Positions 482 to 45,703 of a DNA stretch of 48,837 bases are shown piece after piece. Origin of the DNA: Myxococcota bacterium. Lineage in GTDB: Bacteria; Myxococcota_C; UBA6777. A program made the position numbers and the translations under genes. The notes below the pieces were generated by a model. It did not search any database. It saw only the letters and a list, made by a program, of their open reading frames with translations, and was not told where the DNA came from. Each line of letters opens with the position of its first letter. Within the stretch, counting starts at the first letter, position 1. The stretch lies in the NCBI GenBank assembly GCA_023150835.1, contig JAKLKB010000065.1, positions 1-48,837 on the forward strand, read 5' to 3'.

Positions 482-517
482 ATGAAGAGATGGATAGCGC
501 AGTGGTTGGGTGAGTGA
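482..517 (+). CDS. 11-codon upstream mini-ORF duplicated from the sigma factor start
   Basis: ATG at 482 opens an 11-codon frame reading MKRWIAQWLGE and ending in TGA at 515-517. It is a near copy of the first codons of the sigma gene (MKWIARWLGE), produced by a 35-bp tandem duplication (start codons at 482 and 517). Its TGA overlaps the sigma gene ATG as TGATG, an arrangement that permits translational coupling. Whether it is translated is unknown. It could be a relic of the duplication with no function. Confidence 0.4.
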   Translation: MKRWIAQWLGE

Positions 518-1050
518 TGAAGTGGATAGCGCGGTGGTTGGGTGAGGATCGAGGGCAGTACGCAGAAGCCGAAGCGTTGTACCGCAGATATCATCCGATG
601 ATGCGGCGTCGTTGTCGGCGGATATTGCGAGATGAAGTGTTGGTGGATGATGCGATGCAAGAGAGTTTTTGGGCCTTGTGTCGGGGGTATGGGAGATTCC
701 AAGGGAATGAAGGCCAGTTGATGGCTTGGTTGTATCGGGTGACGACGAGCCATTGTTTGAAGGTGCTGGAGCGAGAACGTCGATGGGATCGGGTGGTGGA
801 AGCTGTTTGCGAAGAGAGAGCGATGTTTGGTTCGGATGTGGGGGAGTTTGAGTCGGATGTGGTGGTAAGAGAAGTCTTGTTGAAGCTGCCGCCGCTTCAG
901 AGAGAAGCGGTGTTGTATTGGTTGTTGGATGGGATGGCCCAAGAAGAGATCGCAGAGGTGATGGGAACGACACGGCATCAGGTAAGGCAGTGGCTGTCGT
1001 CCTTTGCGCAGAAAGCCAAGATCTGGATGGGATTGGAGGAGAGGGTATGA
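517..1050 (+). CDS. ECF-type RNA polymerase sigma factor (first cassette)
   Basis: This 177-residue protein has the two-domain layout of extracytoplasmic-function sigma factors. Region 2 is near residues 20-75 (YRRYHPMM, then DDAMQESFWALCRGYGRF). Region 4 is near 120-165 (LPPLQREAVLYWLLDGMAQEEIAEVMG followed by a helix-turn-helix). It should direct RNA polymerase to a specific regulon in response to the membrane protein encoded next. Its stop overlaps the following start as ATGA at 1047-1050, so the two are probably translated as a coupled pair. GTG at 514 is an alternative start; ATG 517 is chosen because it overlaps the upstream mini-ORF stop. The ECF subgroup cannot be assigned by eye. A very similar gene order recurs at 7403. 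Confidence 0.85.
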   Translation: MKWIARWLGEDRGQYAEAEALYRRYHPMMRRRCRRILRDEVLVDDAMQESFWALCRGYGRFQGNEGQLMAWLYRVTTSHCLKVLERERRWDRVVEAVCEERAMFGSDVGEFESDVVVREVLLKLPPLQREAVLYWLLDGMAQEEIAEVMGTTRHQVRQWLSSFAQKAKIWMGLEERV

Positions 1051-2108
1051 AAACAGAACGGATGGAACCTCCAGATGTGCGGCGAGGCCGAGAGCAGGGC
1101 GGTCACGGTAGGCTGTCGGAGTATCAGATGAGTCGGTATATGTTGGGCTTGATGAACGAGGGCGAACGATCGGCATTTGAGGTGATGTTGAAGATGGATG
1201 AGGCGGTGTGTGCGCAGTTTCAGCGTTTTCAGGCATCGTGGGAAGCCGAGAGATTTGATGAGCGACGCCATCGGATGCCTGTTTTTCCGGGTGCGTCAAG
1301 TATTCAAAATCGCCGTGTATGGGGGATCTTGCGTGCAAGCATGGCGGTCGCTGTCTTGGGGCTGGTATTGTGGGGGAGTCGATCGGTGTTTTGGATGCCG
1401 TTGGAGATGGGGCCACGGGTGCAAGGGTATCTCGTGGATGCGGGGAGAGATCTTGCGGATGCGAAGGATGCGAGGAATACGCCCGCTCCAGACACCATGA
1501 GAACGTCTGGTGTGGGAGCGGCGAAAAAGGCGAATGGTGTAGGGGCGAAGAAGAGCGAGCCGATGCGGACGAAAAAGGCGGAGGATGTAGGGGCGAAGAA
1601 GAGCGAGCCGATGCAGACGAAAAAGTCGGAGGATGTAGGGACAAAGAAGATCGGGCCGATGCGAACGAAAGGGAGTGTTGACCGCGTGTGGGCGAGTGGG
1701 ACGGAGCCGACGATGGTTGTGGCGTTGATGCGTGGAGGAAAGATCACGCAAGCGCGGTCGGGGCAGCATTTTTTGAAGGGGGATCGGCTGCGATTGGCAC
1801 ATCGGTGGGAACGGGGGGGGTATGTGTTTTGGGTGCATCGGCAAGGGAAGACGGTGACGCCGTTGTATCCGCGTGAGGGGAAGATGGAGAGCGTGCAAGT
1901 CGTCTCAGGGGAGATGATGTTGTTGCCGGGTTCTTTGGAGGTTTCGGGGGATGGCCGAGAGGAAGAGTGGTTGGTGGCTTGTTTTTCGCGGCGGCCTGTC
2001 TCTTTGGGGCGATTGCGAGCGGCCCTTGTGTCTTTGCCCAAAAAGATGGATCGTCATGCGTTGAGTGTGTGTGATCATCGTTTGCATTTTTTGGTGCGGA
2101 GAGAGTGA
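1047..2108 (+). CDS. Anti-sigma-like single-pass membrane protein with DUF4384-like domain (first cassette)
   Basis: This 353-residue protein probably holds the adjacent sigma factor inactive and senses an envelope signal. The N-terminal part (about residues 25-65) resembles anti-sigma domains (LSEYQMSRYMLGLMNEGERSAFE) but lacks a clear HxxxCxxC zinc site. A transmembrane helix lies near residues 92-110. A Lys-rich linker of 16-residue repeats (unit like GAKKSEPMRTKKAEDV) spans about 150-212. The C-terminal roughly 110 residues (GDRLRLAHRWERGGYVFWV...) resemble DUF4384, a domain often found with caspase-like proteins. The start overlaps the sigma stop (ATGA) and its own stop overlaps the next start (TGATG). 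A longer frame opens at 918 but would overlap most of the sigma gene. The anti-sigma role is inferred from context and layout. Confidence 0.75.
   Translation: MKTERMEPPDVRRGREQGGHGRLSEYQMSRYMLGLMNEGERSAFEVMLKMDEAVCAQFQRFQASWEAERFDERRHRMPVFPGASSIQNRRVWGILRASMAVAVLGLVLWGSRSVFWMPLEMGPRVQGYLVDAGRDLADAKDARNTPAPDTMRTSGVGAAKKANGVGAKKSEPMRTKKAEDVGAKKSEPMQTKKSEDVGTKKIGPMRTKGSVDRVWASGTEPTMVVALMRGGKITQARSGQHFLKGDRLRLAHRWERGGYVFWVHRQGKTVTPLYPREGKMESVQVVSGEMMLLPGSLEVSGDGREEEWLVACFSRRPVSLGRLRAALVSLPKKMDRHALSVCDHRLHFLVRRE
1540..1680 (+). repeat. 48-bp in-frame tandem repeat encoding a Lys-rich linker
   Basis: About three imperfect 48-bp copies encode 16-residue units such as GAKKSEPMRTKKAEDV between the membrane helix and the C-terminal domain of the anti-sigma-like protein. 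The period is a multiple of three, so copy-number change keeps the frame. Confidence 0.8.
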
Positions 2109-4099
2109 TGGACCCGTGGCGTGCGCGGTTTGCATGGTGGAGAATGGGCTTCTTCCTGTGGTGTTGTGGAAGTGGAGGGCTTGTTCCCGACGTGCGACTT
2201 GCGGAGGCGTCCACGAAAGTTTCGGTGGTTCGGCGATTTGCGTTGTTGGTGGGTCAAGATGATGCAGGCGCACGTGCGCCAAGACTGCACTATGCGAGTC
2301 GGGATGCAGAAAAAATGCAAGAGCTTTTGATCTCGGTTTCAGGATTTCAGAAAGAAGATATCGTCTTACTTCGCCAGACACAGGCGCGGTCTGTGATGGC
2401 AGCGTTGGCGGGATTGCAGCGTCGGATCGCTCGGGTGCGTCGGGCGGAAAAGCACGCAGCGATCTGGTTGTTTGTGTATTATTCGGGGCATGTGAAACGA
2501 GACCGTTTGTTGTTGGGTCGCGGCAGCTTGGGATTTGCGCGGTTGCTTGGGATGATCCGAGGGATGGGGGCGGATCTACGTTTTGTGGTGGTGGATGCGT
2601 GTGAGTCAGGGGGGATGCTTCAAAAAGGCTTGACGTATCGGCGCGAAGGGTTTGCGGTGCCTTTTTTACAAGATCCGCAGATGACGCAGGGCGAGGTGAT
2701 CTTGACGGCGACAGGACAAAGCGAGCAAGCGCACGAAGATCCAACGCTCAAGGGTGGGATCTTTACACACTTCTTGATATCAGGCTTGCGCGGCGCTGCA
2801 GATCAAGATCGCGATCAGCGCGTGACGTTGGGGGAATTGTACCCGTATGTGTATCAGCGGGCTTTGCAACATTCGATGTTTTCGGTGCATGGACCGCAGC
2901 GGGCGCGTTTTGCACAAAGGCTTTCGGGGTACGGAGATCTTGTGTTGGCGCATCTTCGGGGGAGTCCAGCGCGTTTGACGGTCGAAAAAGGCGTTTCGGG
3001 GCGATTCTTTTTGTGGGACAAAAAACGCGAAAAGTTGTTTGCAGAGTGGACACACGGGCCAAAAGAATCGGCTCTCTCGGTGGCGCTGTCTGCAAAACAG
3101 TACATATTGGATTGGCGAAAAGGCACGTCATACAGTCGGATGGCGCTGGATTTACGGACCGAACGGCAGATCGTATTGAAAACCAAGACAGCAACGCATC
3201 TGGTCTGGCGTCCCGCACAAGAGTCGTCGACGGTGGCTTCGTTGGTGCGTTTTCCAAAAGAGTTGCAGGGTGACTTTGTGATCTGGGATCAGTTGCGCCA
3301 GCGGCCCTCTACGCGGGTTGCCAAACGCGCTGGCCATGCTGTTGTGTTGGAACTTCCCGCAGGAGCCTATCTGTTCGAGACACGAGGAACCCAAGGGGCG
3401 CGCCGTTATCCGTTGCGTTTGTCGACGGGGCAAGCGTTTGTGATCCCTGTAGATTGGGCTGTTGCAGAAGATACAGACGCAATCGGTGGAGAGGTTGTAC
3501 CGATGCGTTTGGAGAGGGAGGCTTTTTTAGGGCCGCGCAAGTCTTTTGGCGATCGGGAGCGGGATGGATTTTTAGTGCGATTGTACGAAGAAGTCTGGCG
3601 GCCACAAGCCGAGCAGATGCCGATGTGGGGGAGTGCGTTGGCTTGGTTAGAGGGGGAGGGATTGTTGTGGAGTGGGCGGCCTTTGGGGTGGACTCCGTTG
3701 GCTGGGTATTTGCGACTTCGCGGCGTGGTGGCCCCTGAGGCATCCATGCTTGCAGAGGCCGTTCCGATGGGTGGATACGAAGGGCAGATCGGGGCGATGT
3801 GGACGGTGTGGGAAGGCCGTTTTGCGGCGAGGGAGGGGGCAGAAGAAGGGCAGGTGCAGATCCATTTAGGCGGGTACATGGCCTTTTTACACGATCTTCG
3901 ACTGCGTGAAGCAGCAGGTCTATGGAGTGGGATCTCGTGGGGGATCGGGACAACGGCGCAGATCCATCTATCGGTGGCACGCCAACTTCGGTTGATCGGT
4001 TTGTTGGATTATCGGGGGTTGCGTGCAATCGAGGATCGCCGTTTGACTCGATGGCGCGGCGTGCTGTCTTTTTCGTTGGGATGGCTGCTGCATTTCTAG
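2108..4099 (+). CDS. Secreted caspase-family (C14) protease, possible C-terminal beta-barrel (first cassette)
   Basis: This 663-residue protein starts with a hydrophobic, signal-peptide-like N-terminus. The caspase fold follows at about residues 40-270, with the catalytic His in YYSGH (H128) and the catalytic Cys in VVDACESGG (C165), so the dyad is intact. Residues 290-470 contain beta-rich segments of unknown type. The last roughly 150 residues alternate hydrophobic and polar residues and end in Phe (SFSLGWLLHF), which looks like an outer-membrane beta-barrel; this is inference. It belongs to the metacaspase/orthocaspase group, usually specific for Arg or Lys, though substrate is unknown here. 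ATG 2108 overlaps the previous stop; GTG 2105 is an alternative. The gene is the third in a coupled sigma/anti-sigma/caspase operon. Confidence 0.8.
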   Translation: MDPWRARFAWWRMGFFLWCCGSGGLVPDVRLAEASTKVSVVRRFALLVGQDDAGARAPRLHYASRDAEKMQELLISVSGFQKEDIVLLRQTQARSVMAALAGLQRRIARVRRAEKHAAIWLFVYYSGHVKRDRLLLGRGSLGFARLLGMIRGMGADLRFVVVDACESGGMLQKGLTYRREGFAVPFLQDPQMTQGEVILTATGQSEQAHEDPTLKGGIFTHFLISGLRGAADQDRDQRVTLGELYPYVYQRALQHSMFSVHGPQRARFAQRLSGYGDLVLAHLRGSPARLTVEKGVSGRFFLWDKKREKLFAEWTHGPKESALSVALSAKQYILDWRKGTSYSRMALDLRTERQIVLKTKTATHLVWRPAQESSTVASLVRFPKELQGDFVIWDQLRQRPSTRVAKRAGHAVVLELPAGAYLFETRGTQGARRYPLRLSTGQAFVIPVDWAVAEDTDAIGGEVVPMRLEREAFLGPRKSFGDRERDGFLVRLYEEVWRPQAEQMPMWGSALAWLEGEGLLWSGRPLGWTPLAGYLRLRGVVAPEASMLAEAVPMGGYEGQIGAMWTVWEGRFAAREGAEEGQVQIHLGGYMAFLHDLRLREAAGLWSGISWGIGTTAQIHLSVARQLRLIGLLDYRGLRAIEDRRLTRWRGVLSFSLGWLLHF

Positions 4100-4129
4100 G
4101 TCGTTCACGGCTTAAAACTTTTTTCTCTG

Positions 4130-4245
4130 TAGGACTTACGCAGTTCGATACGAAAAAGGCCCATGTTCGGGCGCGGGCGGTTCGCGAACCGCCCCTACAA
4201 CGGGTTGATTCTTCACGCTTTCCCTCTTCAACTGCGTAACTCCTA
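4130..4245. mobile_element. 116-bp MITE-like element with 16-bp inverted ends
   Basis: The left end TAGGACTTACGCAGTT (4130-4145) and right end AACTGCGTAACTCCTA (4230-4245) are inverted copies with one mismatch. Inside is a perfect hairpin around gggcggttcgcgaaccgccc. It codes for nothing. The same TAGGACTTACGC terminus ends family A elements at 4251, 5325 and 25468, suggesting a shared mobilising enzyme. No transposase is in the window. Confidence 0.75.
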
Positions 4246-4249
4246 TCTC

Positions 4250-4396
4250 TGGTAGGGCTTACACGGTTGGATAATGTTTGGGGTTTCACCCCCACACCCC
4301 ACGAGAGGGCAAAGCCCTCTTGACCCCGTATTGGCGGGGCGAATAGAGGTTTTTCAAACCAACGACGTCGCCGCTTGGGCGTCCTCGAACGCGGGG
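4250..4396 (-). repeat. Family A two-hairpin element, copy A1
   Basis: Minus-oriented copy. It holds the GTCAAGGG-type hairpin with a perfect 7-bp stem (AGAGGGC 4304-4310 with GCCCTCT 4314-4320) and the second GGGGT/ACCCC hairpin. It ends in the TAGGGCTTACACGGTTGG terminus at 4254. It fills the space between the first cassette and the next gene. Nothing else is seen in 4397-4485. Confidence 0.75.
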
Positions 4397-4497
4397 GTTT
4401 TTTCTTCATCGTCATCTCTTAGATGAGCGTAGGCAGTTTTTTCTCTAGCTAAGTTTTTTATTCTTTTACATATTTCTTCTTTGGATGGGAGGCTAGA

Positions 4498-5082
4498 ATG
4501 CGGGTTCGAACCTTTGGTGGATGGGTGCGTTTGGGCGCGTGGTGTGGTGTTTGTTGGGTGGTTATGGGGGTCGCAACGCAGGCGAATGCTTCGGATGCAA
4601 GGCGGTTTGCAGAAAAACTGCATCGAGAGAAGCTGCATTATGGATTCAACAAGGAGGGGAAAGTGGCTTTGCTCAAAGGGGACAAAGAAGCGCATCTGGG
4701 CGTGTTGGGTTCGGGCTATCACAGTTTGTTTCAAGGTTCCGAAGTGGCGCAAAAAGCGGGAAGTCAGGCCCATGCGATGGCGATCAGTGCGACGATCTTG
4801 TCGATCTTGGGCATCGCTGCAAGTGCGACAGGGGCCGCGATCTTTGCGGTTGATCCACAAGGCTTTTTGCCTGAACATCGGCCCGCTCGGGCTGTGTTAA
4901 ATGCCTCGCTTTTGTTTGGTGGTTTGGCCTTGTTGTATGGGTCGATGCTGCTCAACATCCAAGCACAAGAAAAAACCTATTTTGCGATTAAAGCGTACAA
5001 TCGGGATTTAGAGAAAAAGGCGCTGCGCGAATGGAAGCCACACAAACCCCCTCACGGACATCGGCTGTTTCGGGCTGATTGA
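4498..5082 (+). CDS. Small exported or membrane protein of unknown function
   Basis: I do not recognise the family of this 194-residue protein. It begins with a signal-peptide-like stretch ending near residue 31 (VATQANAS). Two hydrophobic segments lie near residues 98-121 (AISATILSILGIAASATGAA) and 140-160, separated by a short loop, which suggests a hairpin in the inner membrane. The C-terminus is basic and His-rich. A ribosome binding site GGGAGG lies about 6 bases before the ATG. It stands alone between repeat-filled intergenic regions. The last codons and stop are duplicated downstream (5120-5156). Confidence 0.65.
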   Translation: MRVRTFGGWVRLGAWCGVCWVVMGVATQANASDARRFAEKLHREKLHYGFNKEGKVALLKGDKEAHLGVLGSGYHSLFQGSEVAQKAGSQAHAMAISATILSILGIAASATGAAIFAVDPQGFLPEHRPARAVLNASLLFGGLALLYGSMLLNIQAQEKTYFAIKAYNRDLEKKALREWKPHKPPHGHRLFRAD

Positions 5083-5156
5083 TTTGTTTTTCGATCGAGG
5101 GGGGCGGTGAACAGTAGCGCATCGGCTGTTTCGGGCCGATTGATTTGTTTTCGATG
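5059..5156 (+). repeat. 61-bp duplication carrying a gene 3' end and stop codon
   Basis: The block catcggctgtttcgggctga plus ttgatttg... occurs at 5059 and again at 5120. The first copy contains the last codons and TGA of the small membrane protein; the second lies just downstream in noncoding DNA. Confidence 0.8.
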
Positions 5157-5185
5157 CTGTAGGAATGATGCAGTTGGCAGCCCCC

Positions 5186-5325
5186 GTGTTCGTGGACTTT
5201 CAAGCGACAGGGTCGTTGTTTTGAAAAACCGTGATCTCTTCGCCAACACGGGGTCAAGGGAGCCGCGCTAAGGAGGCGGGGCGTGGGGTGCCAACCCACA
5301 AAACCATCGAACTGCGCAAGTCCTA
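5186..5325 (+). repeat. Family A two-hairpin element, copy A2 (one stem damaged)
   Basis: Plus-oriented copy beginning gtgttcg and ending AACTGCGCAAGTCCTA at 5325. The left arm of the first hairpin (CAAGGGAGC from 5254) is present but its partner is rearranged (aaggaggcgg), so the stem is broken, unlike other copies. It fills most of the gap before the folate gene; its end lies only about 45 bases before that gene's ribosome binding site. Confidence 0.75.
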
Positions 5326-5384
5326 TGTTCAAACAAGACCAGCGGCAGCGAAAAATGGAGCGAAAAAAAGAAGGAGACAGCGTC

Positions 5385-5981
5385 GTGGATGTGGTGGAAG
5401 AAAAGAAGCGTTTGCGGGTTGCGTACCAAGCGAGGAGATCGCAGTTAGAGAGGGAGTGGGTTGCACAAGCAAGCGGCAGGATCAGCGATCAAGTCGTTGG
5501 TTTGGGGCTTTTGGAGGGTGCGCGTTGCGTGGGGGGATTTTGGCCGATCGGGCATGAAGTGGATCTGCGGCCAGCATTGGAGCATTTGGAGGCGCGGGGG
5601 GTGGTGATCGGTTTGCCGGTAGTGGTGGGGCCGCGCCGTCCGTTGTGTTTTCGGCGTTGGACGCCACAGACACCGATGCAGCGGGCTGTTTTTGATGTAA
5701 TGATCCCGACCGAAGCAGCCGATGTCTGTGTTCCAGATGCGCTGTTGGTGCCGTTGTTGGCGTTTGATCGAAAAGGGTACCGTTTGGGGTACGGTGCGGG
5801 TTATTATGATCGAACGTTGGAGGCGATGCGCGCCCAAGGTCCGCTCTTGACGGTAGGAGTCGCTTACTCTATGCAAGAGCATCCAAGTTTGCCTGCCGAT
5901 GGGGGTGATCAGCCGTTGGACTGGGTGTTGACAGAGCAAGGCTTGTTGTGTACGAGCGGCAAGGCAGGGGAACGCCCGTGA
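5385..5981 (+). CDS. 5-formyltetrahydrofolate cyclo-ligase
   Basis: The enzyme uses ATP to convert 5-formyl-THF to 5,10-methenyl-THF, recycling a stored folate. The family's signature is clear: an early basic segment (KKRLRVAYQARR), a central GLPVVVG strand, and the C-terminal LLVPLLAFDRKGYRLGYG/GAGYYDRTL motif that binds nucleotide and substrate. GTG 5385 is chosen because AAGGAG sits 8 bases upstream (5371-5376) and gives 198 residues, normal for the family; the longer frame from 5283 would begin inside repeat A2. The thioesterase gene follows after 30 bases, so the two may be co-transcribed. Confidence 0.9.
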   Translation: MDVVEEKKRLRVAYQARRSQLEREWVAQASGRISDQVVGLGLLEGARCVGGFWPIGHEVDLRPALEHLEARGVVIGLPVVVGPRRPLCFRRWTPQTPMQRAVFDVMIPTEAADVCVPDALLVPLLAFDRKGYRLGYGAGYYDRTLEAMRAQGPLLTVGVAYSMQEHPSLPADGGDQPLDWVLTEQGLLCTSGKAGERP

Positions 5982-6011
5982 GATGGCTCGGATGGTGCGA
6001 AGGAGCGTAAG

Positions 6012-6917
6012 GTGACGCAAGAGAAGATTCGGGAAAATGTGTTGGATGAGCTGTTGATGTTGCTGAATCTGGAGAAGATTGAAGAAAATATCTTTCGAGG
6101 GCGCAGCCAAGATCTGGGGTTTGGAAATATCTTTGGGGGGCAGGTTTTGGGACAAGCGTTGTCTGCGGCGCTCCAGACGGTTCCCAAAGATCGGCGCGTA
6201 CACAGCCTGCATGGGTATTTTTTGAGACCGGGAGATCCCGCGATGTCCATCGTGTACGAAGTGGACTGTATCCGCGATGGCAAGAGCTTTACGACCCGTC
6301 GTGTGGTGGCGATCCAAAAAGGGCAAGCGATCTTTTCGATGTCATCGTCTTTTCAGGTCGAAGAATCGGGCTTTGAGCATCAAGACACACCGCCAGAAGT
6401 CGTCGGACCCGAAGGGCTCGAATCGTGGTTGGACTGGGCGCGTGGCATGGAAGATCGTATCCCCCCAAATATCCGGCCCAAACTGCTGTGTGAACGCCCG
6501 ATCGAGATCCGAGTGGTCAATCCTGTGAACCCCTTCAATCCGAGGAAACAACCTCCTGTACGTTATTCTTGGTTTCGCGCCATCCACCCCATGCCTGACG
6601 ATCCTGTGATCCATCGCTACATGTTGGCGTACGCTTCGGACTTTGGTCTGGTTTCGGCCTCGCTGTATCCACACGGCCACACCTATTGGGAACCCGATAT
6701 GCAGGTGACCAGCCTCGATCATGCGATGTGGTTTCATCGAGAGTTTCGGATGGATGAATGGTTGTTGTACGTCACGCAAAGCCCCTCTGCCAGCGGGGCG
6801 CGTGGCTTGAACTTTGGCAAGATCTACCAACACGGCCAACTGGTCGCCTCGACCGCTCAAGAAGGTCTGATCCGCTACCGTGGGAATGAGAGCAGCCGCT
6901 CTTCTCAATCCCCCTAA
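6012..6917 (+). CDS. tesB: Acyl-CoA thioesterase II (TesB family)
   Basis: Predicted to hydrolyse medium- and long-chain acyl-CoAs to free fatty acid and CoA in the cytoplasm. At 301 residues it matches the usual double-hotdog TesB length. Visible features are the N-terminal hotdog (NIFGGQVLGQALSAA, then HSLHGYFLRPGDP) and the C-terminal hotdog with a conserved SLDHAMWFHREFRMDEWLLY segment and the final RG(L/A)NFGKIY. GTG 6012 has AAGGAG at 6000-6005, six bases upstream. It follows the folate gene closely. The physiological acyl substrate cannot be told from sequence. Confidence 0.9.
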   Translation: MTQEKIRENVLDELLMLLNLEKIEENIFRGRSQDLGFGNIFGGQVLGQALSAALQTVPKDRRVHSLHGYFLRPGDPAMSIVYEVDCIRDGKSFTTRRVVAIQKGQAIFSMSSSFQVEESGFEHQDTPPEVVGPEGLESWLDWARGMEDRIPPNIRPKLLCERPIEIRVVNPVNPFNPRKQPPVRYSWFRAIHPMPDDPVIHRYMLAYASDFGLVSASLYPHGHTYWEPDMQVTSLDHAMWFHREFRMDEWLLYVTQSPSASGARGLNFGKIYQHGQLVASTAQEGLIRYRGNESSRSSQSP

Positions 6918-7030
6918 TACGATCTCCGAGTGATGTGTACACGAAGGGTCGTGCGTAGGTGCCCTGTTATCGGGCAGCCACAGGGGGCTGCCCCTACATC
7001 TTTACGCTCACAACGGGCGGATCTCGTATA
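6917..7030 (+). repeat. Family B inverted-repeat element, copy B2
   Basis: About 113 bp with inverted ends (atacgatctccg near 6918 and cggatctcgtat near 7019-7030). The centre is a gggcagcc/ggctgccc hairpin followed by cctac. It lies just after tesB and may serve as its 3' hairpin. The next 180 bases (7031-7210) contain nothing recognisable. Confidence 0.7.
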
Positions 7031-7210
7031 ACCCATATCGCCCTTGCGGTCGAACTCGGCGAAGTATCCGAGCAGCCGCTCTTCCCAACCCCCCTAACCC
7101 CGCCGCTTTTCGTCTGCACTCCCTCCTGTTTTTTTACAATTATTCACCCGCTTTTTTTCGCAAGTACACTCTTCAGTACAGAGAGGAGTTGCGCGGATGC
7201 CAAAAAGGCC

Positions 7211-7347
7211 GTGTTCGTGGCACCCCAAGCGAGAGGGCCGTTTGTTTTTAAAACGCCTGCTCGTTTCGCCGATACGGGGTCAAGGGGACGCAGTTCCCTT
7301 GTGGGGCGTGGGGTGAAACCCCACACAACAGATCCAACCGCGTCGCT
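7211..7347 (+). repeat. Family A two-hairpin element, copy A3
   Basis: Plus-oriented copy. First hairpin at 7281-7301 pairs CAAGGGGAC with GTTCCCTTG around loop gca, including one G-T pair that would be G-U in RNA. The second hairpin pairs GTGGGGT with ACCCCAC. It lies directly upstream of the second cassette's sigma gene. Confidence 0.8.
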
Positions 7348-7402
7348 CCCGATCGATGCACAACGCAGATCCCCAACAACGTGTGGCAGGTGGTGTTTGG
7401 GA

Positions 7403-7912
7403 ATGGATGAGCAAGTAGTTTTTGATGATCTCGTTCGGACATATACGGATCGTGTGCGTGGTTATTTTTGGCATGCGTGGCGGCTTTCGGAAGCGGATGT
7501 AGACGAACTCACCCAAGAAGCTTTTTTGGAAGTGTGGCGTGCTTTGCCCGGTTTTCGGTCGGAATGTAGCGTGTTGTGGTGGATCTTGCGGATATGCCGT
7601 CGGATGGCATGGCGGTATGTCAGAAGGCAGCAGATCCGCAGCTTTTTTGGGCTGCGCTCCAACGCACCGCTTGAACATGAGGCGGCGGACGAACGGTTGG
7701 GCGCAACCCTTGAAGCGCGCAGCGAGATTCGCGCTTTGATCTCCGCGATGAAGAGGCTTACTGCTACCGATCGCGAGTTAATTTACCTGCACTACGTCGA
7801 AGACTTGAAGGAACCCGAGATGGCCGAGATATTGGAGATCAACAGACACACGCTTCACACGCGACTCAACCACGCAAGGAGGCGCTTGCATCGGCTCTTT
7901 AGAGCATCCTAA
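7403..7912 (+). CDS. ECF-type RNA polymerase sigma factor (second cassette)
   Basis: This 169-residue protein has the full ECF layout. Region 2 spans about 8-75 (DLVRTYTDRVRGYFWHAW, DVDELTQEAFLEVWRAL, then WWILRICRRMAWRYVRR). Region 4 spans about 112-165 (LTATDRELIYLHYVEDLKEPEMAEILEINRHTLHTRLNHARRRL). It should be controlled by the membrane protein at 7949. ATG 7403 gives a standard-length protein; the open frame extends upstream into repeats and is not used. The gap to the next gene is 36 bases. It differs clearly in sequence from the sigma factor at 517, so the cassettes are diverged paralogues or independent acquisitions. Confidence 0.85.
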   Translation: MDEQVVFDDLVRTYTDRVRGYFWHAWRLSEADVDELTQEAFLEVWRALPGFRSECSVLWWILRICRRMAWRYVRRQQIRSFFGLRSNAPLEHEAADERLGATLEARSEIRALISAMKRLTATDRELIYLHYVEDLKEPEMAEILEINRHTLHTRLNHARRRLHRLFRAS

Positions 7913-7948
7913 GAGTGAGCGGTTGGGTCGTTCCTATCACCGCAAAAA

Positions 7949-9010
7949 GTGATCGTGATCAGGCACGACGCGCCAGTTGAGATGGACAGCTTCACAAAGA
8001 AGCCTTGGGTAGGGAAGATGATCGTGGTCAAAAAACAAGACGAAACAGAAGATGTAAATACCTCGAAAGAATCTGAGTTCTCGGATTTTTTGAGAGAGGC
8101 GATGCAAGACCCAGCTTTCGGTGTCCCTCGGCCCTCCGCAGATCTGCAACAACGGCTGCGTGCCATTCCACAACAACACCCCCGATCTGCCCCGCGTTCT
8201 CGCACGATGTGGGCGGCATTGTTTCCGATCGCAGGAGTGGCCGCTGTGTTGGTGTTCCTTTTCATTGGGCAACCGCCGATCGACCCGATCTCCTCGACTC
8301 CTTCGATGCTTCCTCCACCGATCCCCCCGCCAACACAACGCATCTCCCATCCGTCGGTCGTAAGGCGCGATACGCTCCCCACGCTGCGCAGAGTCGAGCC
8401 GCCCGTAGCTCGACGCGACACACCACCAACATTGCGTAGAGTCGAGCCGCCTGTCGTTCGGCGTGATACACCACCAACGTTGCGTAGAGTCGAGCCGCCT
8501 GTGTTGCGTCGCATGGCGGCTTCTCCTTCGGGACTTGTCGCCAAAGGCACCTTATGGGAGCCCTTGTACGCTCACCAACGAGGAGCAGGACTGCCTAGAC
8601 AATCGAGGGTCTTGCGCAATGGTGTGGTCTTGTACCCCGGCGATCTTGTCCAGTGGACCTACAAGATCAGCGCGCCTGTCTATGTTTTTTTGGTGGGAAT
8701 GAACCGAGAAGGCGAGATCTATCCGCTGTTGCCGCAGCCTCCCGAACCATCTGCCATCCGTCTCGAACGCCTCCAAGGCTCGCTACCCCAAGCGGACGGA
8801 GAAGCACGCGCCTTCCGCTTGGATCACTACGTCGGTGCCGAGCGTTTCTTTGTGTTCCAATCCTCGAAGCCCTTCTCTTTTCAAGAAGTAAAAAGAGAGT
8901 TGCTTTCTGCTTGGGAGATTAGTCAGAAAAAGATAGAAAAGATGGTTCTTGTCTCCACTGTTTGGTCGATCTATACTGTGTACTTTGTCAAAAAAGCACG
9001 CGAAGATTGA
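7949..9010 (+). CDS. Anti-sigma-like single-pass membrane protein with DUF4384-like domain (second cassette)
   Basis: At 353 residues it matches the length and plan of its counterpart at 1047. A cytoplasmic N-terminus of about 85 residues leads to one membrane helix (about 88-109, WAALFPIAGVAAVLVFLFIG). A Pro/Arg linker of 16-residue repeats (RVEPPVARRDTPPTLR) covers about 147-190. A C-terminal DUF4384-like domain follows (YPGDLVQWTYKISAPVYVFLV...GEIYPLLPQ). It lacks a visible zinc anti-sigma motif, so the sigma-binding role is inferred from gene order. Internal ATGs at 7982 and 8018 are alternative starts, and no ribosome binding site decides between them. Downstream caspase gene starts after 27 bases. 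Confidence 0.7.
   Translation: MIVIRHDAPVEMDSFTKKPWVGKMIVVKKQDETEDVNTSKESEFSDFLREAMQDPAFGVPRPSADLQQRLRAIPQQHPRSAPRSRTMWAALFPIAGVAAVLVFLFIGQPPIDPISSTPSMLPPPIPPPTQRISHPSVVRRDTLPTLRRVEPPVARRDTPPTLRRVEPPVVRRDTPPTLRRVEPPVLRRMAASPSGLVAKGTLWEPLYAHQRGAGLPRQSRVLRNGVVLYPGDLVQWTYKISAPVYVFLVGMNREGEIYPLLPQPPEPSAIRLERLQGSLPQADGEARAFRLDHYVGAERFFVFQSSKPFSFQEVKRELLSAWEISQKKIEKMVLVSTVWSIYTVYFVKKARED
8390..8510 (+). repeat. 48-bp in-frame tandem repeat encoding a Pro/Arg linker
   Basis: About 2.6 copies of a 48-bp unit encode RVEPPVARRDTPPTLR-like 16-residue repeats. Period and position match the repeat in the first cassette's protein, although the sequences are unrelated. Confidence 0.85.
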
Positions 9011-9037
9011 TCGAAAAAACAGTAGAGAGCATCTAAA

Positions 9038-10846
9038 ATGGGAAGAGCAAGCAGCCGTCGGGATGTCAAACGAGCGTTGAAGTGCGTTTCTCTTGTGATC
9101 TTTGGGACTCTTTTGTGGGGAGCACAGGCCGAAGCTTCGACCGATCGAAGCGCCGAGGCAGACCAGCACAAAAAGCCCCGAACCAACAGCAATCCCAACA
9201 AACATCACAAGGGGCGCGATGTTCGCTTGGCGCTGGTGATCGCCAACGAACACGGATGGGGAGCCGAGCCGCGCCTTGCTTATGCTGTCAAAGGTGATCT
9301 TCGTCGGATGCGTGATGCTTTGCGGCATCTGGGCTTTTTTTTACCCCCTGCTTTGGTGTTGGGAAACCAAGATCCTCAAGCCATCCGTACTGCTTTTGCG
9401 ACTGTCAAGCGTTTGATTCAAGAAAAAGGCGTGACCACGTTTTTCTTTTATTATAGTGGCCATGCCGACAAAAACCACCTTCACACAGGGCCTCCACCGA
9501 TGTCTTGGGGGAGCGCATCTCCGCTTACGCCAGACCCCAAAGCCCCGATCTCTTACGCAGAGTTTGCTTCCTTTCTACAAGACTTGCGGATCCCAAGGCG
9601 CTTTGCATTGATCGATGCTTGCTATAGCGGCATGATCGCCAAGCATTTTGGTAACGCTGTGAACTTTCGCCGCGCCATCGCGCAACAACAACTCCCCAAA
9701 GGCGTCGAGCCGATCTTTGTGTCGGCGGATCTCAAAAAGTACCTACATCAAAACGATCCCAACGCGCAAACCATCCATATCCTTGCATCGACCGCAGATG
9801 ATCAACTCGCCTTTGAATCCCAAAAGCTGAAAGGATCGATCTTTACACATCATTTTTTGCGTGGACTCGCAGGGCGCGCAGAACGCGGCAACAAAGGGAC
9901 GATCTCCATGGACGATCTCGCCAACTATGTGCGTCCCCTTGTGGCCCGCGACACTCACGGGCAAACGCCCACCGAATGGAAGCTTCATCAAGGCCGCGAT
10001 GCCTACGCCTTGGCTGCCACGTATAAAAGCATCCTTGAGATCCCGACAGCCCTCCAAGGACGTTTCAAAGTCCTGATCGGTGACGCCCAAATTTCGTGGA
10101 ATACCGCGCAACGCACGGTTGCGAAACTGCCTGTGGTCGTAGGAAAAGGCATCTTGTTCCACCAAGACGCAAAGACCAAACGCTGTCGCTCGTATGCGTT
10201 GGAGGTCGCCCCTTCGCAACGGATCGAGCTTCTACCCGCGCTTTGGCAGGAGATCCCCTGCCATCAAATAGGTGTGGGAGCCAAAGGAGAGCCGATCTTG
10301 CCCATGCACTTGATGGAACAGGCCGACCTGACAGAAGATTGGAGCCTCGAATTGCAGGGCGGCATGTGGGGCAGCAACGGTTTGTTTAAACTTCCAGAAG
10401 GCGATCGGATGGGGATGTTGTCGGTGGGGATGCGTTGGCGCTATGCAGCGATCTCGGTGGGCACGGGGCTTGGACCTGTGTCGTTTCTGCAACAAGACGG
10501 AACCTCGAAGGCTTTTTGGCAGAACTGGTTGAACCTACGCGGTGAAGGCGGATATCGCCATCAGTGGGATCGCCTCGACTTGTTTGTCGGGGCGTATCTT
10601 GGGGTGGGCGTGTTGCTGCATGATCTCAATGAACAAGCGATCCCGTCCTTTTCTGTTCAAGGCGGGCTGTTATGCCAATTGGGGATCTGGTTGGATCAGC
10701 GATGGGCGCTGTTGGTCTCCGCAGAAGGTGGCGGGCATCCTGCCTTTGTGCAAGAAGCGCAACATCGCGTGTTTCGGTTCTTTGCGACCTACAGCCTGCG
10801 CGTGGGCGTTCGCTTTCGCTTTGGCCCCAACCGCTTACTGTTTTGA
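9038..10846 (+). CDS. Secreted caspase-family (C14) protease with C-terminal beta-barrel-like region (second cassette)
   Basis: This 602-residue protein has a signal peptide (VSLVIFGTLLWGAQAEAS, cleavage near residue 34). The caspase domain is at about 60-330, with catalytic His in FFYYSGHAD (H142) and Cys in LIDACYSGM (C195). A middle region (about 330-440) is unassigned. The last roughly 160 residues contain repeated amphipathic strands (SVGMRWRYAAISVGTGLG, DLFVGAYLGVGVLL, YSLRVGVRFRFG) and end LLF, typical of an outer-membrane barrel. It would place the protease in the periplasm or at the cell surface. It is the third gene of the second cassette. The barrel is inferred, not established. 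Confidence 0.8.
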   Translation: MGRASSRRDVKRALKCVSLVIFGTLLWGAQAEASTDRSAEADQHKKPRTNSNPNKHHKGRDVRLALVIANEHGWGAEPRLAYAVKGDLRRMRDALRHLGFFLPPALVLGNQDPQAIRTAFATVKRLIQEKGVTTFFFYYSGHADKNHLHTGPPPMSWGSASPLTPDPKAPISYAEFASFLQDLRIPRRFALIDACYSGMIAKHFGNAVNFRRAIAQQQLPKGVEPIFVSADLKKYLHQNDPNAQTIHILASTADDQLAFESQKLKGSIFTHHFLRGLAGRAERGNKGTISMDDLANYVRPLVARDTHGQTPTEWKLHQGRDAYALAATYKSILEIPTALQGRFKVLIGDAQISWNTAQRTVAKLPVVVGKGILFHQDAKTKRCRSYALEVAPSQRIELLPALWQEIPCHQIGVGAKGEPILPMHLMEQADLTEDWSLELQGGMWGSNGLFKLPEGDRMGMLSVGMRWRYAAISVGTGLGPVSFLQQDGTSKAFWQNWLNLRGEGGYRHQWDRLDLFVGAYLGVGVLLHDLNEQAIPSFSVQGGLLCQLGIWLDQRWALLVSAEGGGHPAFVQEAQHRVFRFFATYSLRVGVRFRFGPNRLLF

Positions 10847-10907
10847 GCCCTTTTTCTTCCCATGCCGTTGCCACGGGCGGCTTTCTCTTCTCGCTCCTTG
10901 ACCTGAT

Positions 10908-10983
10908 AAGAGTCGCTTGTTGGACGGTTTTTGGGGTTTCACCCCACACCCCACAAGGGAGCGCGGCTCCCTTGACCCCGCAT
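10908..10983 (-). repeat. Family A two-hairpin element, copy A4 (truncated)
   Basis: Minus-oriented copy lacking one end. First hairpin 10954-10974 is a perfect 9-bp stem (CAAGGGAGC with GCTCCCTTG, loop GCG). Second hairpin pairs GGGGT with ACCCC. It lies between the convergent caspase gene and lipoprotein gene and could act as a bidirectional 3' structure. Confidence 0.75.
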
Positions 10984-10986
10984 TTT

Positions 10987-12192
10987 TTAAGGGGTGGGAG
11001 GGAGGGGATCGCAAAGCCAAGAGGTGACAACAAACCATCCTGCGAGGGTGGTGATGCGGGAGGTGGTGGCGGTGCGTCGGGTGCGGTCGTCGGGATAACA
11101 TCGGCGTTGGGGATGGGAGTAGACAAAGTCGTAATCTTTGTTGGGAGCGACGTTGAAAAAGACCGCAAGTCCTGTGCTTTGGGTGGAGGTGGCGCTGCTT
11201 TGCCCGGGGTCAGGGATGTAGATCGGGCCTGTTCCTGAGGCGGGTGTCATCACGACAGTCCCGCCGACCACGGGCTTGAGGAAGGGATCGAGTTCTTGGA
11301 TCTCGGCACCGACTTGGGCCTTTGTCCAGTCGAGAGTGTTGACGCCAAGCAAAGCGGCGATCTGGGTTGCGGTGGTTTTGGTGAACATCTCCGCACGGAT
11401 TCTTGGGATGCCCCGAGAAAAAGTCTTTGAATCAACATAGAAAGGAAACATCATGGGAACGAGATCGCGCACACTATCCTCGAAGGTGACGGCGATCTCT
11501 GTATCATAGGGAACCCCTGAGAGGACGTAGCTTCCGTCTTGGGCAGAGAGAACACACGGTGTACTCGGGCGTTGGTAGAGGCAGACCTTTACACCGCCAA
11601 GTGTGGGGTTTCCGGGCGCAAAGAAGTCTGCGACGATACCTTCCAAAACAAAGGTCTTGGTGGCTTGTTCGGGAGAAGGTTCGCTGAGTGTTTCAGGAGA
11701 AAGTTCGCTGCTGTGTTCGCTTGGGGTGTCGGGAGAAGGTTCGCTGCTGTGTTCGCTTGGGGTGTCAGAAGAAAGTTCGTGGTTTTGTTGATCCGCGAGG
11801 GGTTCGTTGTGGTCGGGAAGGAGGGGTTCTTGGGCGTCGGGTATCGCGTCAGAGGTTGATTCGGAGGGGGTGGTGTCGGAGATCGGCTCGGAGGCGTCGG
11901 AGATCGATTCGGAAGGGGTGGTGTCGGGTGGGCTGGGTTCTTGGGCGCTCTCGGGTGAAGAGGGTTCGGTGGATGGTTCGGATACTTCGGTGGGTTGGGG
12001 TTCTTTGGCGCTCTCGGGTGATGCGTCGGTGGTTTTTTCGGTGGTGGCCTCGGTACTGGTGGGGACTTGGCAAGCCGACCATGTACTGACAACGAAGAGA
12101 AAGGCGATAAGAGATCCGAACCATCGGACATTTGAGAGAGGCGCGAGGCGCGAAGAAGCGGTGTACGAAGTGATGTGTTGTGTGGGCTTCAT
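10987..12192 (-). CDS. Lipoprotein with acidic linker and carboxypeptidase-regulatory-like domain
   Basis: Function unknown. The 401-residue product begins with a basic segment, a hydrophobic core and a lipobox ending ...VSTWSAC (Cys near residue 41), so it should be lipidated and envelope-anchored. Residues about 45-180 are a Ser/Glu/Pro/Thr spacer with short internal repeats (SPDTPSEHSSE). The rest contains a beta-sandwich resembling carboxypeptidase regulatory domains (VLEGIVADFFAPGNPTLGGV, DGSYVLSGVPYDTEIAV). AGGA lies about 7 bases before ATG 12192. It follows another lipoprotein gene (start 14174) on the same strand, separated by a 65-bp repeat array. Confidence 0.75.
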   Translation of the reverse strand: MKPTQHITSYTASSRLAPLSNVRWFGSLIAFLFVVSTWSACQVPTSTEATTEKTTDASPESAKEPQPTEVSEPSTEPSSPESAQEPSPPDTTPSESISDASEPISDTTPSESTSDAIPDAQEPLLPDHNEPLADQQNHELSSDTPSEHSSEPSPDTPSEHSSELSPETLSEPSPEQATKTFVLEGIVADFFAPGNPTLGGVKVCLYQRPSTPCVLSAQDGSYVLSGVPYDTEIAVTFEDSVRDLVPMMFPFYVDSKTFSRGIPRIRAEMFTKTTATQIAALLGVNTLDWTKAQVGAEIQELDPFLKPVVGGTVVMTPASGTGPIYIPDPGQSSATSTQSTGLAVFFNVAPNKDYDFVYSHPQRRCYPDDRTRRTATTSRITTLAGWFVVTSWLCDPLPPTP

Positions 12193-12240
12193 GGAATGAT
12201 CCTATTGGCGTTTGAGAGAAAGGATTGCAGCGGGTCGGGG

Positions 12241-12400
12241 GTGGTTTCGCGGATGATCGTCATGCAAGAGTTGCATCCATACAGACAACCGGCGAGAAAC
12301 AAAAAGTGGTTTCGCGGATGATCGTCATGCAAGAGTCGCATCCATACAGACAACCAGCGAGAAACAAAAAGTGGCTTCGCGAATGATCGTCATGGCAAAA
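12241..12400 (-). repeat. 65-bp tandem repeat capturing a lipoprotein gene 3' end
   Basis: Copies begin at 12241, 12306 and 12371 (gtggtttcgcggatgatcgt). The third, partial copy runs into the last codons and TGA (12390-12392) of the lipoprotein gene, so the unit derives from that gene's 3' end. Contains an internal catgcaagagttgcat palindrome in the first copy. Confidence 0.85.
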
Positions 12401-14174
12401 GCCTTTCGGTGTGAAGGAGAAAGACGACGGTTTGAGTCGGGTTGTTTTGCGGCGTAGGGAAGCGAGAGTCTGCCCAAACAAGTGTAGGGGAGTTTGTGGT
12501 TCCTGAGAGAACAAAGCTGCCGTCGGGTTGAGCGAGCAAGCGCCCTTGGGCGGTCTGTGTGTGGGATCCGTGCAAGGTTCGGAAACTACGCCAGCGGCCT
12601 TGTGGATCGAGTGTTGCGAGGAAGATATCGCGGTTGCTTTGGGCTTTGTGATTGGGCGATATCGCAGCGGGGAGTTGGATATCACCTTGGAAATCACCCA
12701 AAAGAGCGATACCTTGGGAGGTTTGTGCAAGACTTTGTAGGCGTACGGCTGAAGTGGCGGTGGTGGCGGTGAGCTGTTGTGTCCATTGAAGTTTGCCTTG
12801 TGTATCCCAATGGGCGATGAATCCGCTGTCTTGGGGGGAAGAAAACAAGGAGAGATGTTCGGAAGAGAACAGTTCGCCCCGGTAGGTTCCGGCCAAGAAA
12901 ACCCCTGATGTTGCGGCATAAAGCGCTTGTGGGATCTCATCGCCTGAGACAGCATAGAAAAGATCGGCCCAGACAGGATGCCCATCGGATCGGACGTGCA
13001 TGATATAGGGATCTTGTCCGTCTGTCATGGCGCGTAGTCCGGCGCTTTTGATGGAGGGTGCAGGGAGCGTCAAGTAAAAGCGATGGGTGATGTAGAGGTT
13101 GTGCGAGGGAGGAGAGGCGGCTGTTTGAGCGAGAGCGATCTTTGGGAGGAGGAACCCTTGGGTCGCGCTTCCGTAGGCCAACGTCCAACGGTCTCGGCCA
13201 TCAAGGTCAAGCCGCGAGAGAAAGTCGGCCCCTTGATACACCGAAGGAGATGGCGTGCTGTAGAGGCGACCATCAAAAAGCAGGAGATCTTTTCCATAGA
13301 ATTGTCCGGCGACATAGAAGGCATCGCTTTCTGCGATCGCAAGGGCGCTTGCGAGGACATCACCCTCTCCGCCTGCCGAACGCGCCCACAGGACATCACC
13401 GTCTTCGTTGAGGCGCATCAGAAAACTGCTGATGCCTTTGTGCTTGGGCAGGCGATGGTTGCCGAGCGTAAGCACCGCGCTGGTGTACGTTCCGAGTAGA
13501 TAGATCCCTGCTTGTGGATGAATGGCGATGGATGTAAGGGCTTCGTCGCCTTCGGCTCCCCATACCTTGACCCATCGTGCCGAGCCTGTGGGTGAAAGGC
13601 GCAACAAAAAAGCTTGGCGGCGGTTGGCTGCTGTGTCAGTCACGGAAAGCCCCGCTAGTTCGGCTTGATCGGCATGAAGCCACCCACCGACGAGAAGGTC
13701 TCCGTTTGGGTGGCGTTGTTGATCGGTGATGGCGATGGCTTGATCGGCTCGGAAAAAGCGTATCCATGGGAGATTGGAGGGGGGTTGTTCTGCGCCGGAT
13801 TCGTGGACTGGTTCGGGGGTGTGTTCTGTGGATGAAGGTTCCGAAGATGTGGACTCTTGGGGGATTTCCGCAGGGTCATCTAGGGTGGTTTCTGGGAGCG
13901 GGAACTCGGAGGTTTCGGATGTGGAGGCATCGGACAGATCAGGTGGTAACGGCTCAGCGGAGTTGGGAGAGCGTAAGCAGAGGCCGCGAAAGCAAGAAAA
14001 TCCGTTGGTGCATTGGCGGTTTGAGCGGCATTGACCGCTTTGATTGATGCAGCCCGCCAAAGCGAACCAAGCGAGCAACGCGAGGAGGAAAAAGTGACTT
14101 GTTGATAAAAAGCCTGTGGATCTGTTCTTCGTGAAAAAGGACTGCGAGAGGAGGAAGACGTGACTTGTTGACAA
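12390..14174 (-). CDS. Lipoprotein with Cys-rich knot and beta-propeller-like (SBBP) repeats
   Basis: The mature protein begins at a lipobox LAGC after a hydrophobic signal (HFFLLALLAWFALAGC). A Cys-rich segment follows (CRSNRQCTNGFSCFRGLC), then a Ser/Glu/Pro linker. The remaining roughly 450 residues are repeats of the type DGDVLWARSAGGEGDVLASALAIA...FYVAGQFYG, typical of SBBP-like beta-propellers. The specific ligand or role is unknown. No ATG lies near the signal peptide; TTG 14174 is my best guess (595 codons including stop) and lacks a good ribosome binding site. The frame stays open to 14435 across repeat A5, which I reject. The signal region is duplicated (14080-14174). It is divergent from the similar lipoprotein at 14417. 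Confidence 0.7.
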   Translation of the reverse strand: MSTSHVFLLSQSFFTKNRSTGFLSTSHFFLLALLAWFALAGCINQSGQCRSNRQCTNGFSCFRGLCLRSPNSAEPLPPDLSDASTSETSEFPLPETTLDDPAEIPQESTSSEPSSTEHTPEPVHESGAEQPPSNLPWIRFFRADQAIAITDQQRHPNGDLLVGGWLHADQAELAGLSVTDTAANRRQAFLLRLSPTGSARWVKVWGAEGDEALTSIAIHPQAGIYLLGTYTSAVLTLGNHRLPKHKGISSFLMRLNEDGDVLWARSAGGEGDVLASALAIAESDAFYVAGQFYGKDLLLFDGRLYSTPSPSVYQGADFLSRLDLDGRDRWTLAYGSATQGFLLPKIALAQTAASPPSHNLYITHRFYLTLPAPSIKSAGLRAMTDGQDPYIMHVRSDGHPVWADLFYAVSGDEIPQALYAATSGVFLAGTYRGELFSSEHLSLFSSPQDSGFIAHWDTQGKLQWTQQLTATTATSAVRLQSLAQTSQGIALLGDFQGDIQLPAAISPNHKAQSNRDIFLATLDPQGRWRSFRTLHGSHTQTAQGRLLAQPDGSFVLSGTTNSPTLVWADSRFPTPQNNPTQTVVFLLHTERLLP

Positions 14175-14175
14175 A
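14080..14175 (-). repeat. About 60-bp duplication in the lipoprotein signal-peptide region
   Basis: The block encoding FLSTSHFFLL (near 14080-14112) recurs as FLSTSHVFLL (near 14145-14175). The duplication is in frame and lengthens the n-region of the signal peptide or supplies an alternative start. Confidence 0.7.
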
Positions 14176-14180
14176 AAGCC

Positions 14181-14312
14181 CGCGTTCGTACGAGCACAAG
14201 CGACAGGATCGTTGGTTTGAAAAACCGTGATCTGTTCGCCCCTCACGGGGTCAAGGGGCGAACGTCCCTTGTGGGGTTTGGGGCAACGCCCCACAAAAAT
14301 AACCCCAGCAAA
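14181..14312 (+). repeat. Family A two-hairpin element, copy A5
   Basis: Plus-oriented copy. First hairpin 14253-14272 pairs CAAGGGGCG with CGTCCCTTG around loop AA, with one G-T pair; the second pairs TGGGGC with GCCCCA. It sits in the divergent intergenic region between two lipoprotein genes. Confidence 0.8.
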
Positions 14313-14416
14313 TCGTATCGTTCGAGAGAGAACAAAAAAAAATGCACCCATGCTTTCCAACACACGACACTTTTGGTTAGAGTAGTCTCTCTGCCTTAAA
14401 GATGGAGTACAGCGAG

Positions 14417-21643: not shown

Positions 21644-21682
21644 ACGCCTCTCTCGCCACTCGCACAACACTTCCCGTTCCAA

Positions 21683-22014
21683 AAAGAGTCCACGGAAAAC
21701 ACGGAAAGCACGGAAAGAAAACAAGCTGTGTCTACAGAACGCGGCTACGGGAAGTTTCACGCTTTGGAAAACACGGAAGGCACGGAAAGAAAACAAGCTG
21801 TGGCTACAGAACGCGGCTGCGGGAAGTTTCACGCTTTGGAAAACACGGAAGGCACGGAAAGAAAACAAGCTGTGGCTACAGAACGCGGCTACGGGAAGTT
21901 TCACGCTTTGGAAAACACGGAAGGCACGGAAAGAAAACAAGCTGTGGCTACAGAACGCGGCTACGGGAAGTTTCGCGCTTTGGAAAACACGGAAGGCACG
22001 GAAAGAAAACAAGC
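21683..22014. repeat. 72-bp tandem repeat, over four near-identical copies
   Basis: The unit, spaced exactly 72 bp (marker acaagctg at 21721, 21793, 21865, 21937, 22009), includes cacggaaggcacggaaag. Copies are almost identical, implying recent expansion. It lies between the amidase and the carotenoid block. The same cacggaaggcacggaa core appears near 45662-45690. Long frames across it are produced by the repeat (72 = 24 codons). Nothing else is recognisable up to 22158. Confidence 0.9.
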
Positions 22015-22173
22015 TAAAAAAAACAGCGCAGCGTTTTTGGGGGTTCTGGCATCTCAATCGGCATCGTTTTGGCGTGGTCTATCTTTTCGTGAATTCGCGT
22101 CAAGGAATGCCTGAAAAAGGTGCTCTTTCTTCTGCGTAATGCCGTCCGAAAAAAGTGTAAGGTGAGGTCGCTG

Positions 22174-24485: not shown

Positions 24486-24611
24486 ATTCGCGGTGTTTCA
24501 AGCGGCGCAGTCGCTGGTTTGAAAAACGCTCGATCTCCCCGCCAACACGGGGGTCAAGGGGCGACAGTCCCTTGTGGGGCGTGGGGCAAAGCCCCACTCA
24601 ACCAAACGAAG
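24486..24611 (+). repeat. Family A two-hairpin element, copy A6b
   Basis: First hairpin at 24555-24574 (CAAGGG with CCCTTG, inner pairs weaker). Second hairpin pairs GTGGGGC with GCCCCAC around loop AAA. It ends about 40 bases before the methyltransferase ribosome binding site. Confidence 0.75.
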
Positions 24612-45700: not shown

Positions 45701-45703
45701 AGG

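Follow-up and report, generated by a model that had tools for sequence, protein, structure and literature searches.

Two cassettes of sigma factor, membrane anti-sigma-like and caspase genes in a Myxococcota genome as candidate envelope-spanning proteolytic modules

Positions 1 to 48,837 of contig JAKLKB010000065.1 from a Myxococcota bacterium (GenBank assembly GCA_023150835.1), the stretch of 48,837 nucleotides called the window below, carry two cassettes in which genes for an extracytoplasmic function (ECF) sigma factor, a membrane protein with one predicted transmembrane (TM) helix and a caspase homologue follow each other on the forward strand. This trio is conserved in many genomes, zinc-bearing members of the middle family are homologous to known anti-sigma domains, the DUF4384 domain of the middle protein co-varies with the caspase, and a short basic motif is conserved between the TM helix and DUF4384. 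We consider it somewhat probable that each trio is an envelope-spanning sigma/anti-sigma/protease module, in which the caspase would make the site-1 cut in its own anti-sigma factor.

In the proposed mechanism, the cytoplasmic helical domain of the anti-sigma factor would hold the ECF sigma factor at the inner membrane, and DUF4384 would extend into the periplasm on a flexible stalk. A C-terminal eight-stranded barrel (predicted for P0006, the second caspase) would insert the exported caspase into the outer membrane, with the protease domain facing the periplasm, and the caspase would recognise the DUF4384 domain of its partner as a docking or sensing part. Once activated, it would cut the stalk after the conserved K or R of an R-x-K/R-G motif, so that DUF4384 is shed. 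The stub might then be open to an RseP-type site-2 protease, by which the sigma factor would be freed; an M50 family protease is encoded in this genome. The direction of signalling, the site-2 step and activation of the operon by its own sigma factor are putative in the same way as sigma binding and cleavage.

The six genes of the two cassettes are:

517..1050, + strand: ECF sigma factor 1 (P0001); Sigma70_r2 6e-12 and Sigma70_r4_2 5.8e-10 (Pfam)
1047..2108, + strand: membrane anti-sigma-like factor 1 (P0002); AlphaFold, homology to a paralogue
2108..4099, + strand: caspase 1 (P0003); Pfam C14 3.1e-9, C14 domain at residues 42-233, His128/Cys165 from alignment
7403..7912, + strand: ECF sigma factor 2 (P0004); Pfam
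7949..9010, + strand: membrane anti-sigma-like factor 2 (P0005); TM helix 89-107, DUF4384 22.9 bits, type without zinc motif
9038..10846, + strand: caspase 2 (P0006); Pfam C14 1.3e-14

P0001 and P0004 matched ECF sigma regions 2 and 4, and P0003 and P0006 matched Peptidase_C14, all above the Pfam cut-off. In both sigma proteins these two regions are the only ones present and fit within about 200 amino acids, as is characteristic of ECF (group IV) sigma factors. An original prediction, made from the DNA letters, had proposed these genes, and all six were recovered, with the first set coupled by ATGA at 1047 and TGATG at 2108 and the second set in the same order. For five of the six, the ratio of nonsynonymous to synonymous substitution (dN/dS) was determined against the metagenome-assembled genome (MAG) KLAP109, the closest named genome (caspase 95% identical). 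Values were 0.02, 0.33 and 0.12 for sigma factor, membrane protein and caspase 1, and 0.14 for both sigma factor and membrane protein 2, a range that indicates purifying selection and thus working genes. The length of 353 residues common to both membrane proteins had been listed among their shared features. This turned out to be a coincidence, since P0002 and P0005 are 15-19% identical, the family ranges from about 228 to 406 amino acids and the true start of P0005, annotated at a GTG codon, is uncertain.

In this genome (G000, 7.56 Mb), Pfam searches identified 11 C14, 9 DUF4384 and 35 sigma region 2 matches. Seven trios were found, two in the window and the others on contigs C225, C113, C75, C205 and C231, the last with the caspase gene in divergent orientation. 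With 35 sigma region 2 matches in 7.6 Mb, a sigma gene is estimated to lie just upstream of a given caspase by chance in about 1% of cases; here, seven caspases have one in this position. Two relatives within the family contain 15 (G002) and 16 (G004) trios. The family and the phylum were represented by only five genomes, so that the lineage is poorly sampled.

A wider search was performed with six caspases alone, so that the neighbouring genes constitute independent evidence. It yielded 80 loci of Myxococcota, Fibrobacterota, Acidobacteriota and relatives, in MAGs and isolates that bear the names Myxococcota/Deltaproteobacteria (Myxococcus, Corallococcus, Nannocystis, Archangium and others), Fibrobacter, Chitinispirillaceae, Chitinivibrionales, Acidobacteria and Vicinamibacteria. 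When scored with local hidden Markov models (HMMs), 64 of the 80 caspases stood third in a same-strand trio, after genes for first a sigma factor and then a DUF4384 protein, and the predicted gene order is thus found in Myxococcota and further phyla. Several of the other loci were truncated at contig ends, divergent (L036, L038) or affected by mis-joined open frames (L064). Overlaps of four bases were present at the first junction in 48/64 and at the second in 44/64 trios. An alignment of the regions preceding the Myxococcaceae operons, made to look for a conserved ECF promoter, was unreadable because of the short intergenic distances and the upstream gene.

The genome also contains a sigma-free version of the DUF4384-caspase pairing on contig C203 (L025, G000:C203:17001-37000). 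At 6070-17045 of this locus, four caspases are accompanied by DUF4384 lipoproteins or fused DUF4384 domains and by a protein with an OmpA-like C-terminus, and no sigma gene was recognised among them.

The middle protein is most plausibly an anti-sigma factor, which would bind the sigma factor encoded next to it. An Hx3Cx2C zinc motif was observed near the N-terminus in 41/64 trio membrane proteins, and among 48 members profiled, zf-HC2 was identified in 18 and DUF4384 in 33. A profile of the N-terminus matched the solved anti-sigma domains of DdvA of Myxococcus xanthus (1.4e-5), a 3hug chain (1.8e-5), ChrR (9e-4) and RsiW (5e-3); the 3hug protein is a mycobacterial membrane protein which we take to be RslA. 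The zinc-bearing members of the family thus have the cytoplasmic helical domain of class I anti-sigma factors, and that of P0002 is degenerate yet alignable. The parts of both membrane proteins are:

1116..1253, + strand: anti-sigma-domain-like helices of P0002 (residues 24-69); alignment with Hx3Cx2C domains, weak NCBIfam antisigma match at 29-64 (E 0.0014)
1302..1391, + strand: predicted TM helix of P0002 (residues 86-115); AlphaFold, hydropathy
1518..1670, + strand: 48-nt tandem repeat, KK-rich periplasmic linker of P0002; repeat analysis
1662..1673, + strand: candidate caspase site R206-T-K208-G209 of P0002; K/R and G/S/A alignment columns of 95 anti-sigmas
1710..2102, + strand: DUF4384 domain of P0002 (residues 222-352), Ig-like beta sandwich; paralogue alignment, AlphaFold
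8381..8502, + strand: 48-nt tandem repeat, RR-rich linker of P0005; repeat analysis
8543..8548, + strand: candidate caspase site K199-G200 of P0005 (VAKG); alignment
8633..8872, + strand: DUF4384 domain of P0005; Pfam 22.9 bits (cut-off 27)

The AlphaFold model of P0002 has confidently predicted helices at 25-69, a TM helix at 86-115, a disordered stalk at 117-216 and a beta domain at 222-352. Together with hydropathy and the repeat scan, it agrees with the one helix and repeat linker originally described for both membrane proteins. The DUF4384-like domain claimed for both fared less evenly in the HMM search, where P0005 stayed below the threshold and P0002 gave no match. However, P0002 aligned across DUF4384 with a paralogue that itself exceeds the Pfam cut-off (38% identity, E 4e-19), from which it is concluded that the domain is present in P0002. 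Foldseek and VIA-align searches with this domain gave generic Ig-like matches only.

The caspases retained His and Cys in 95/95 trio members, including the dyad described earlier for both window proteins, and have the C14 caspase fold. P0003 consists of an N-terminal export segment, the C14 domain and a beta-rich C-terminus with a final F. In the AlphaFold model of P0006, an export helix is followed by the caspase fold, small beta domains and an eight-stranded barrel:

9209..10030, + strand: caspase fold of P0006 (residues 58-331) with His142 and Cys195; Z 22.3 to Arabidopsis metacaspase 4, alignment
10337..10819, + strand: predicted eight-stranded outer-membrane beta barrel of P0006 (residues 434-594); AlphaFold, Foldseek

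The predicted barrel matched OmpA (1.4e-6), NspA (2.9e-6), Ail (3e-5) and also OmpX in Foldseek. An export signal combined with eight strands, as in the OmpA/OmpX type, was seen in the predicted structure of P0006 only, and Pfam searches with isolated barrel segments gave weak matches only (OMP_b-brl, PagL, autotransporter and DUF3575). In a set of 94 caspases, beta-amphipathicity was far higher over the final 170 residues than in the catalytic region (Wilcoxon p 2e-14), and 34/94 end in F. Judged from the model, an OmpA-like barrel would put the protease in the periplasm. The caspases had been called secreted; export is supported, and exported and probably outer-membrane anchored is the better description.

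Nine residues after the catalytic Cys, a caspase loop carries K-G, with K in 67/95 and R two positions before it in 63/93. This R-x-K-G resembles the motif of the stalk and is a possible self-processing site, kept as a lead only because the P0006 subfamily has F there.

Between the TM helix and DUF4384, the anti-sigmas share the motif R-x-[K/R]-[G/S/A]. The basic residue is present in 91/95 (K in 83, R in 8) and followed by a small one in 94/95 (G in 86, S in 5, A in 3), and R precedes it by two positions in 66/79. R-x-K-[GSA] occurred in 58/95 stalks compared with 5.5 in shuffled ones (maximum 12, 300 shuffles) and in 0/95 cytoplasmic parts. From the membrane to the basic residue, the median distance is 17 residues (5th-95th percentile 9-62). 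Four further anti-sigmas (L196, L221, L222, L226) have KG, and the motif was absent from the sigma-free DUF4384 proteins L013, L015, L016, L215 and L220, a small control set; a DUF4384 control search of plasmids gave one record. Characterised C14 peptidases outside animals cut after R or K (PMC5756287). The conserved pair of basic and small residue is as expected for an orthocaspase cut site, which makes it a candidate for cleavage on grounds of sequence.

Within genomes, the distances between paralogues of DUF4384 correlated with those of the caspase catalytic domain (r 0.78 in G000, 0.91 in G002 and 0.63 in G004; p <=0.004), also when the distances of sigma factor or N-terminus were partialled out (p <=0.008). 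DUF4384 and caspase thus behave as partners. No correlation was found among the within-genome paralogues between the two ends of the same anti-sigma, N-terminus and DUF4384, and its two halves had the same nearest paralogue in 1/7, 1/15 and 0/16 cases. Distances of sigma factor and anti-sigma N-terminus correlated in G000 and G002 and not in G004; the split-half reliability of the sigma distances was 0.65 in G002, less in G004 (0.28) and 0.13, not reliable, in G000. That cassettes have exchanged their sigma/N-terminal and DUF4384/caspase halves is not claimed, because the N-terminal segment is short.

Several observations weigh against a caspase that cuts its own anti-sigma factor. P0002 has lost the zinc ligands, which is not unusual, since about half of the membrane-bound class I anti-sigmas are without them (PMC7406223). 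The N-terminus of the P0005/L024 type gave no anti-sigma family match in profile searches; position, TM helix and DUF4384 are conserved, and its presumed role follows from position. The C-terminus of the L022 caspase seems to be helical and to form no barrel, and a few anti-sigma/caspase pairs are without a basic residue at the motif. Co-variation of neighbours can reflect joint inheritance, and in G002 sigma factor and caspase share the same nearest paralogue in 9/15 cases. Sigma binding and cleavage are steps that we infer. Finally, a DUF4384 lipoprotein beside a caspase in the sigma-free C203 cluster contains KKG, and with a small control set R-x-K-G may have a structural role at the entry to DUF4384. 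The corresponding explanation is considered very unlikely: R-x-K-G would be the structural start of DUF4384 or a membrane-anchoring basic patch, proteolysis would have no signalling part and the caspase would merely travel along. That single KKG speaks for it, but the motif is absent from the five sigma-free control proteins, the exchanges of K to R and of G to S/A follow the logic of a protease and the dyad is kept throughout.

Alternatively, the caspase might be the output of the circuit and not its switch: sigma factor and anti-sigma would respond to envelope stress through another site-1 protease and increase the production of an outer-membrane protease that acts on other substrates, be it in developmental lysis, in predation, in turnover of the envelope or in cell death. 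ECF operons often contain their own target genes, which favours this explanation, as does the place of the caspase as last gene of the operon. Asplund-Samuelsson et al. have proposed roles in the developmental death of Myxococcus (PMC3501461). It is nevertheless rather unlikely, as it leaves both the co-variation of DUF4384 with the caspase and the basic/small pair in nearly all stalks unexplained. The co-variation would also fit DUF4384 as an inhibitor or anchor of the caspase with R-x-K-G as a substrate-like loop, protease and sigma factor being silenced and then released together. Fusions of DUF4384 to caspases are encoded at other places in the genome (L015, L016), and the motif lies directly before DUF4384, as such a role would suggest; however, it is in or beside predicted disorder (pLDDT of about 41 in P0002) and near the membrane, as is typical of a cut site, and this explanation is regarded as improbable.

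Operons of sigma-70 and metacaspase genes were reported in 2012 from Myxococcus, Anaeromyxobacter, Haliangium, Sorangium, Ralstonia and Fibrobacter, with four in M. xanthus (PMC3501461, as far as the sections cited here go). They pair a sigma factor with a caspase homologue within an operon, in overlapping taxa (Myxococcus, Fibrobacter) and are almost certainly the same kind of locus as the trios, so that the "novel module type" of the original prediction was too strong. Those sections are silent on an anti-sigma function of the middle gene, the DUF4384 link, the barrel and the cut site, which are put forward here. The trios resemble DegS-RseA-RseP with sigma-E and other cases of site-1 proteolysis of anti-sigmas (PMC10202637) in combining an ECF sigma factor with a single-TM anti-sigma that has a periplasmic domain, and the trios have a candidate cut site 9-62 residues past the membrane. 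That review of site-1 proteases makes no mention of a caspase, whereas the candidate in the trios is a C14 peptidase encoded within the operon itself.

A caspase-like protease can control an ECF sigma factor, as follows from type III-E CRISPR, where Csx29 cuts Csx30, an inhibitor of the ECF sigma factor CASP-sigma (PMC10028731, in the part used here). The likeness lies in a caspase-like protease set against the inhibitor of an ECF sigma factor encoded alongside; in contrast, Csx29 is an RNA-activated CHAT protease working with Cas7-11, and Csx30 is not described there as a membrane protein. The window caspases are C14 peptidases without a CHAT match and do not form a Craspase (TPR-CHAT, Cas7-11 and Csx30); no Cas genes, for which no profile search was made, were evident among the neighbouring genes. 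The anti-sigma domain of DdvA (PDB 8rlz, 8rot) is homologous to those of the trios. Its N-terminal segment recurs in the 991-residue chain, which bears the name of a CHAT (caspase-like) domain protein. DdvA combines anti-sigma and caspase-like parts in one chain, whereas those of the trios are separate proteins predicted in two membranes. FecA-FecR-FecI likewise lines up an outer-membrane barrel, an inner-membrane anti-sigma and an ECF sigma factor across the envelope, with a TonB-dependent receptor where the trios have a small barrel and a protease. For ECF54, control by proteases including CHAT proteins has been proposed (PMC8999054). An outer-membrane caspase with a cognate membrane anti-sigma was not described in the literature found, a search that left out subscription papers, so that its absence is not proof.

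Most bacterial caspase homologues are usually discussed as cell-death proteins. The regulated proteolytic signalling suggested originally is well supported by the anti-sigma anatomy, the conserved trio, the coupling of DUF4384 and caspase and the conserved basic site, and programmed death lacks direct support. A conserved caspase family now has a concrete partner, a predicted cell location and a predicted cut site. If the proposed role is true, caspases would be signal-transducing proteases across the bacterial envelope. As a tentative extension, held with some doubt, outer-membrane caspases may form a widespread class of transmembrane signalling proteins, each the dedicated site-1 protease for its cognate anti-sigma factor and acting at R-x-K/R-G, duplicated to 7-16 pathways per genome in one lineage and regulatory and non-lethal in role. 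Trios occur in cultivable genera (Myxococcus, Corallococcus, Nannocystis).

PADLOC gave weak matches only, to a generic caspase model for both caspases and to a CARF model for P0001. Between the two trios, a 194-amino-acid protein without Pfam match is encoded at 4498-5082, followed by genes for 5-formyl-THF cyclo-ligase and acyl-CoA thioesterase. Repeat-rich lipoproteins of similar look adjoin two different trios, in the window at 10987-12192 (- strand) and in L024 at 7459-8583 (- strand), and are possibly sigma targets. Dispersed repeats of 83 nt (7246-7328, 14216-14298, 24519-24601, 31575-31657) and 51 nt (126-176, 6983-7033, 27833-27883, 28590-28640) occur in the window, with internal palindromes and apparently mostly between genes. 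Tandem repeats were found at 21622-22053 (72 nt period), 39768-40069 (39 nt) and 45659-45919 (13 nt).

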